From the NCBI GenBank assembly GCA_030066555.1, contig JASJBK010000003.1:70287-105491 (forward strand): a stretch of DNA of 35,205 bases, written 5' to 3'. A program made the position numbers and the translations under genes. A model generated the notes under the pieces. That model did no database searches. It was not told the origin of the DNA and saw only the letters and a program-made list of their open reading frames with translations. This DNA is from Halieaceae bacterium. GTDB lineage: Bacteria; Pseudomonadota; Gammaproteobacteria; Pseudomonadales; Halieaceae. Shown one piece after another: positions 27,446 to 27,994 of this stretch (positions are counted from its first letter, which is position 1; every line of letters begins with the position of its first letter).

Positions 27446-27478
27446 GACGGTGTGTAGGCTGTGTCGACAGTTTCAGAG

Positions 27479-27542
27479 AAATGCTCCGTAGCGCGGGCAC
27501 GAACTGGGCTTACCCCCTCCCAGGACACGCTAGAAGCATGCC
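27479..27542. repeat. Direct repeat copy A (64 bp)
   Basis: This 64-bp stretch is repeated at 27575-27638 with about nine mismatches and no gaps. It carries only the left flank of the palindromic element: after GCATGCC the sequence diverges, so it looks like a truncated or decayed copy. Confidence 0.7.
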
Positions 27543-27574
27543 TTACAAGTCCGCTTGAACGACTACGCTTGGAT

Positions 27575-27638
27575 AAATGCTCCGTAGGGCGGGCGCAAAC
27601 TGGGTCTGCCCCCTCCCCAGACACGCTAAAAGCATGCC
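27575..27638. repeat. Direct repeat copy B (64 bp)
   Basis: Second copy of the 64-bp repeat, 96 bp downstream of copy A. It runs into the complete palindromic unit at 27600-27703 and supplies its left arm and the start of its core. Confidence 0.7.
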
Positions 27639-27703
27639 GTCCATGGCTCGCTCGGCGCCGGCCGTCCCTGGCCGGCGACGGTCCGTGGAGGGGGCAGACC
27701 CAG
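27600..27703. repeat. Palindromic repeat unit 1
   Basis: Terminal 17-bp perfect inverted repeats, CTGGGTCTGCCCCCTCC at 27600-27616 and its complement at 27687-27703, enclose a 31-bp core (27624-27654). They also enclose an 8-bp hairpin (CGCCGGCC, 6-base loop, GGCCGGCG, 27656-27677). The core recurs exactly, in inverted orientation, in unit 2. The element resembles a REP/MITE-like intergenic repeat; no transposase is near. Confidence 0.75.
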
Positions 27704-27788
27704 CTCACGCCCTCTTACTGAGTGAGATTCCAGCAGATCAGATTCTAAGCTCGATATCGGGGGTTCTACGCGCGGAGCGTGGGCGGTG

Positions 27789-27883
27789 CCCGGGGCGTTG
27801 GCGGGACCGTCTGCGGCCAGGACGGCCGCAGTCGAGCGAGCCATGGACGGCATGCTTTTAGCGCGTCCCGCCAACGCCCCGGG
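27789..27883. repeat. Palindromic repeat unit 2, inverted relative to unit 1
   Basis: Terminal 19-bp perfect inverted repeats, CCCGGGGCGTTGGCGGGAC at 27789-27807 and its complement at 27865-27883, enclose an 8-bp hairpin (CTGCGGCC/GGCCGCAG, 27811-27831). They also enclose the 31-bp core (27833-27863), identical to the reverse complement of the unit 1 core. The order of parts is the mirror of unit 1, but the arm sequences are different. Confidence 0.75.
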
Positions 27884-27946
27884 TATCGCGCACGCGGCTT
27901 CGTGGCAACAACGGCCAAGCTACTATTTGCCCCGCTATGGACAGGC

Positions 27947-27974
27947 AAAAAAAACCCCGGCAGTGCCGGGGTTT
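27947..27974 (-). terminator. Rho-independent terminator of the atp operon
   Basis: Read on the minus strand, a perfect 10-bp stem (AAACCCCGGC with GCCGGGGTTT) and 3-base loop are followed by eight T residues. It begins 20 bp past the atpC stop codon, where the atp operon should end. Confidence 0.92.
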
Positions 27975-27994
27975 CGATGAGGGCTAGTAGAGTC

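Follow-up and report, generated by a model that had tools for sequence, protein, structure and literature searches.

Between a minus-strand gene for a Na+/H+ antiporter (nhaC) and atpC, a Halieaceae bacterium carries two palindromic repeats with one shared core and arms of different sequence, each arm pairing with its own partner, and the question is what kind of element keeps such pairing while its sequence changes. The window analysed here is a stretch of 35,205 nucleotides, and within it the layout given in the preliminary description is borne out, with the two units followed by a terminator-like site (27951-27975) and then atpC. The 31-bp core of unit 1 (27624-27654, plus strand) is identical to the reverse complement of 27833-27863, where the core of unit 2 lies on the minus strand. 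The plus-strand arms pair perfectly over 17 bp in unit 1 (27600-27616 with 27687-27703) and over 19 bp in unit 2 (27789-27807 with 27865-27883), and an 8-bp inner hairpin is found in both units. With mismatches allowed, the inverted repeats extend to 27591-27712 (84% complementary) and 27777-27895 (90%), and on either strand the folds of both units beat all 200 shuffled sequences (z -7.1 to -9.3). No promoter-like site was found in the intergenic stretch, a comparison of 27560-27900 with phage and plasmid collections gave no match at the sensitivity used, and open reading frames crossing the units were set aside as mechanical only.

The explanation that we favour, and put at roughly an even chance of being right, is that the palindromes are an inverted pair, one A and one B unit, from a REP/BIME-like family of repeats dispersed through the genome downstream of genes. 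On the strand opposite the core as first described, each unit would form an RNA of the TwoAYGGAY type (RF01731), with a hypervariable, strictly paired basal stem leading through a three-way junction to two hairpins, whose loops mostly have the form CA(N)GGAYG. The two RNAs would point away from each other, so that read-through from either side would give a transcript with one unit in sense. The two loops of a unit would bind a CsrA dimer, and the copies jointly could serve as decoys for CsrA or as 3' ends marked by it. We infer from sequence and predicted structure both that RNA is made from the units and that its loops bind CsrA. Both the RNA family and the prediction that it binds CsrA have been published; the repeat nature, the pair geometry and the wobble polarity described below are new.

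The core is not confined to this site. A search of the source genome (G000) with the 24-nt inner core and up to three mismatches returned 41 matches, compared with none for the reversed control, and exact matches occur in three Halieaceae metagenome assemblies, probably those of the sister species G001-G003 of the same genus, and in Parahaliea mediterranea TN14-10. Local coincidence or a simple duplication, raised at the outset as the alternative, is ruled out by these 41 matches together with the shuffle controls. With many matches situated at the ends of contigs and an assembly that is 86% complete, the genome holds at least this number. The 30 copies that were read, out of the 41, fall into two subfamilies, A, with a foot resembling GTAGGGCGGGCGCGAACTGG, and B, with a foot resembling CCGCGCGTGCGGCACC, and the window holds one of each. 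The arms of the two units had been called unrelated; their sequences do differ, but they are diverged arms of subfamilies A and B, each with its own consensus. A third form, C, has a different core (CGCCGTGAACCC...) and arms that vary between copies past the first few pairs. The tetranucleotide GTAG is common in A units (45 of 57), less so in B units (8 of 45), and is read directly in the outer foot of unit 1 (27584-27587, plus strand). The window also contains a half A unit, not mentioned earlier, that consists of the left foot and left arm only (27488-27542, plus strand), within a 72-nt stretch (about 27476-27547) that duplicates part of unit 1 in direct orientation at 83% identity. Half copies adjoin full units at further loci of the source genome. 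At locus L041 (600-800), as in the window (27476-27643), the left flank and left arm are tandemly duplicated beside a full unit, as if replication had slipped at the hairpin.

Units are arranged in pairs with a fixed geometry. Among neighbouring units less than 450 bp apart, 44 of 46 have convergent cores (core(+)/core(-)) and hence diverging RNAs; by a rough classifier, the 44 pairs comprise 34 A-B, one A-A and one B-B, with 8 not fully called. The spacing is 182-188 in 25 of the 44, with a variable spacer sequence; in the window, the spacer that separates the two RNAs at their 5' ends occupies 27715-27776, and in the family its length is often constant. In the distant genome G143, 11 of 11 listed pairs with members no more than 400 bp apart have the same geometry, as do 4 of 5 listed in G023. 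Gene context was assessed with a codon-usage gene caller in 51 stretches of G001-G003 and Parahaliea, where 37 of 48 sites could be classed: 21 lie between convergent genes, 15 between co-directional genes, one between divergent genes and none within genes, compared with 29 convergent, 91 co-directional and 39 divergent background gaps of at least 60 bp in the same stretches. In the sister species, the units are thus situated 3' of genes, and 36 of the 37 classed sites fit inverted dimers between convergent or co-directional genes; the site in the window lies between co-directional genes.

Assignment to the TwoAYGGAY family is shown for the repeat family and not, by score, for each unit of the window. 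Unit 1 (27584-27719, minus strand, subfamily A) reaches 37.3 bits with the RF01731 covariance model (E 3.5e-4), under the 43-bit cut-off, and folds at -81.2 kcal/mol (z -8.0), whereas unit 2 (27777-27895, plus strand, subfamily B) has no match at E<=1 and is a member by its core sequence and by a fold like that of unit 1. Across the source genome, where 150 of 154 candidates were scored, there are 30 matches at E<=1, six of them over the cut-off, and 14 control genomes gave none. Among 58 genomes searched as relatives, including the source, E<=0.001 is reached in 15 and the cut-off exceeded in 11. A class-wide search of 369 genomes, again including the source, found 19 carriers at E<=1e-4, 16 over the cut-off; 13 have at least two matches and six have one, and these copy numbers are floors, as seven candidates were scored per genome. 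Four of these carriers, scored in full, hold 15, 10, 14 and 30 matches at E<=0.01. The basal stem and two hairpins that the repeats share with TwoAYGGAY RNAs are backed by covariation (38 pairs in three helices), hairpin 2 contributing only one covarying pair, and the two terminal AYGGAY-type loops are present as A(N)GGAX, with the Y place often G or missing. What differs from the published family is that the repeat is multi-copy, paired and dispersed, with a hypervariable basal stem. An entry in the 2010 discovery table gives TwoAYGGAY as probably an RNA and probably not cis-regulatory, and in the portions of the literature that our search covered no paper was found describing it as a dispersed paired repeat. 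What had been an orphan RNA in Rfam is, in several gammaproteobacterial lineages, a dispersed repeat that comes in pairs. Matches to MIR1437, mir-5615 and MIR7526, far below their cut-offs, were taken as chance.

The preliminary description had read the retained pairing as selection on a folded shape, and the arms of the other copies lend this good support. From the fetched loci of G000-G003, which cover most but not all hits, 127 units were parsed and 113 kept (105 A/B and 8 C), with flanks of at least 20 nt and at least 11 of 16 arm pairs; this pair filter drops broken units and so favours pairing, and it is not the sole basis of the shuffle and polarity tests. Arm changes were counted at positions 2-15 in 104 A/B units with longer flanks, with the consensus of three length/subfamily classes as the reference. 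Changes on both sides that preserve Watson-Crick pairing number 342, compared with 63 one-sided changes and 18 two-sided changes without pairing. Of 1456 cells, 1375 are Watson-Crick; re-dealing the right arms within their class 1000 times leaves 893.5 on average and never more than 950. A gap-free alignment of 96 columns, built from 70 units with a 23-nt hairpin, all distinct, has 98.0% of cells paired, as opposed to 77.3% when the 3' letters are shuffled, and 533 cells changed on both sides, as opposed to 155.5; 23 of the 38 pairs have changed on both sides, and slid structures are only 35-44% paired. Arm length is matched as well: A arms have 19 or 20 nt on both sides in 42 of 57 units by pattern, another 11 misread by the pattern agree by eye, and four were not read.

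Which strand folds can be read from the wobble pairs. At arm positions 0-15 of the 104 units, G-U pairs fall on the TwoAYGGAY strand 42 times and on the core strand 7 times (p 3.6e-7); counted once for each distinct combination of class, position and pair, the ratio is 28 to 7 (p 5e-4), and the bias has one direction in all four genomes, G000-G003. Positions 16-20 hold 140 wobbles on the TwoAYGGAY strand and 2 on the core strand, mostly inherited. Were the core strand the folded one, G-T would be tolerated there; the wobbles lie instead on the TwoAYGGAY strand, which points to the strand opposite the core as first described. Of the one-sided wobble changes, 29 of 32 are C>T on the RNA strand, and strand-specific C-to-U deamination could be part of the cause, which would likewise mark the TwoAYGGAY strand as exposed or transcribed. 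In the distant genomes, a crude arm parser, which read 37 of 57 units (0 of 4 in G082), gives 49:29 toward the RNA strand (p 0.03). A count over the whole fold, which took in flanking hairpins, is mixed, with RNA-strand to other-strand ratios of 89:99 in G143, 53:24 in G325, 35:20 in G419 and 17:7 in G082.

Compensation of this extent could also arise purely at the DNA level, if one arm of a palindrome is copied onto the other by replication template switching, with no selection on an RNA. This process has been described as both creating and maintaining RNA stems (PMC8794818). It would account for the great excess of compensated double over one-sided changes and would explain the 163 transversion-type changes among the 342, which cannot pass through a G-U intermediate, and the half copies beside full copies suggest hairpin slippage. 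On its own, however, template switching gives no reason for the 42:7 wobble polarity, for the constant loops or for the common spacing, and as the sole cause we consider it unlikely. The explanations are not exclusive: template switching may well act together with selection, and the combination of template switching with selection on the RNA strand fits most observations. The family also offers a natural experiment on stem pairing, with double and single changes counted in roughly a hundred sibling stems of four closely related species, which allows stepwise compensation to be distinguished from template switching.

The loops point to CsrA. On the RNA strand, A(N)GGAX occurs in hairpin 1 of 109 of 112 A/B units and in hairpin 2 of 111. 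Hairpin 1 has the loop CAGGACG in 33 units, CATGGATG in 29, CAGGGACG in 29 and CAGGGATG in 10, alongside rarer forms, and hairpin 2 has mainly CAGGGATG, CAGGGACG or CATGGACG; in the distant genome G143, ACAGGGAUGU (ACAGGGATGT) is the most frequent loop. In the window, unit 1 presents AGGGAC in hairpin 1 (27656-27677, minus strand, 8-bp stem) and AUGGAC in hairpin 2, which the core forms on the minus strand. The consensus from CsrA SELEX is RUACARGGAUGU, with six-nucleotide loops in the majority, and the hairpins mostly have four contiguous pairs or fewer (PMC7652899), so that very stable stems, such as the eight pairs of hairpin 1 here, may be a disadvantage for CsrA. A high-affinity CsrA/RsmE site is an ANGGAX hexaloop placed directly on a stem, and the form without N, to which CAGGACG belongs, has lower affinity (PMC4005645). 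Binding of CsrA by TwoAYGGAY RNAs was proposed by Gardner and colleagues on the basis of motif matches (PMC4333381), and all 10 genomes searched have a csrA gene. Between the species of G000-G003, CsrA residues 1-54 vary at a single place (K/R), so CsrA does not explain the core special to G000 (see below). Sponge RNAs of the Csr/Rsm system, such as CsrB and RsmZ, are single-locus small RNAs with many sites; they share with the repeats the A(N)GGAX hairpin loops and the presence of a csrA gene in the genome, and differ in that here two sites are predicted per copy and the copies are scattered. The repeat nature thereby gives the proposed CsrA role of TwoAYGGAY a new form, that of many scattered sites. 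A literature search combining CsrA with REP and CsrA with MITE gave no paper on point. As a tentative and rather doubtful suggestion, dozens of two-site CsrA-binding hairpins behind genes might form a diffuse sponge that tracks global transcription via read-through, in which the stems would evolve by template switching, compensation would be mutational and selection would only polish the result.

Without any involvement of CsrA, the units might alternatively protect or process mRNA 3' ends, a function that has been suggested for REPs. Their location 3' of genes and their very stable stems are in keeping with such a function, but it leaves unexplained the near-constant A(N)GGAX loops in two hairpins, which extend to distant genomes, and we think it quite improbable. 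In a third alternative, which we also consider unlikely, the repeats are unusually large GTAG-tagged REPs/BIMEs that a RAYT (Y1) transposase spreads in the form of single-stranded DNA, the fold being the recognition hairpin of the enzyme and any RNA role incidental. The repeats share with this class the GTAG foot of most A units, though of few B units, GTAG standing on the outside of the pairs, as well as inverted dimers and the 3' intergenic setting, convergent or co-directional, as published for REPs. GTAG REPs are, however, simple palindromes of 20-40 bp with a stem of 5-13 bp, as opposed to the branched fold of 100-135 nt here, and REPs have an associated RAYT gene, whereas no Y1 (RAYT-type, Y1_Tnp) transposase was found in 5 of 12 carriers (G000, G001, G006, G016 and G023), including G023 and G006 at 99% completeness (G000 only 86%). 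In the other seven carriers, the stretches around eight Y1 genes have no RF01731 match at E<=0.01. Moreover, TnpAREP acts on the GTAG-bearing REP strand and not on the inverted one, but the strand that folds here, and on which wobbles are tolerated, is the opposite one. A literature search on Halieaceae with REP found no paper on point.

Returning to the A/B repeat family as such, the preliminary description had offered, beside selection, a mobile element whose ends are swapped or copied. The first half is consistent with copies that are dispersed, flipped and present or absent; against the second, arms are hardly shared between loci. Arms that differ at no more than one position account for 2 of 667 comparisons within a genome and subfamily, which makes recent copy-paste seem rare. 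Units occupy shared intergenic sites in as many as four sister species, with orientation flipped between species at some loci: between nhaC and atpC, the order A-B of G000 is reversed to B-A in G002 and G003, and G001 retains a half A. At C38:67600, a unit is present in G000 and G002 with none seen in G001, but no clean empty site was found; at G002:C299, only the right flank is common with G001 and G003. While ortholog flanks are mostly 82-94% identical, 44 ortholog comparisons, which are not independent, differ at 254 of 704 arm positions (196 compensated, 47 one-sided and 11 two-sided unpaired). A arms differ at 6.8 of 16 positions between orthologs and at 8.1 between any two species, and B arms at 4.7 and 5.5, so that arms from the same site are hardly more alike than arms from different sites. 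Cores differ at 1.9-2.3 of 35 positions within a genome and at 4.5 between G000 and its orthologs (19 comparisons). This homogeneity by species sets G000 apart from the rest, the difference among G001-G003 (2.0-2.8) being about the within-genome level, and the cores of pair partners are more alike than re-dealt ones (53 compared with 66.6 differences in 36 pairs, p 0.016). No comparable homogeneity is seen in the arms, for which the values within and between genomes are 7.7 and 8.1 in A, and 5.3 and 5.5 in B. Integron attC sites were set aside, since the repeats have a conserved interior flanked by variable sequence, the reverse of the attC layout.

Other elements have entered or joined the repeats. 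In the source genome, a gene for a 383-aa transposase with HTH_38 and rve domains, which we take to be of the IS30 type, lies in the hairpin-1 loop of an A unit (L031, C237, 4690-5841), and the last 100 bases of L047, where contig C12 ends, hold, in another A unit, the end of an apparent second copy of this element. A second palindromic repeat, like GTCATTCCCGCGAAGGCGGGAATCCAG, occurs at five loci of the same genome (L034, L044, L045, L046 and L031), four times inside the A-B spacer. In the distant genomes G143 (L235-L253) and G325 and G419 (L254-L269), pair halves seem to be followed by extra long hairpins, for example GTGACTTTTTGTTACGACAAAAAGTTAC, making larger composites (9 loci). Finally, small GC-rich insertions lie within hairpin 1 or at the junction in G003 (C144 12760; C168 11306 and 11504; C38 59487), with almost one sequence in two units each.
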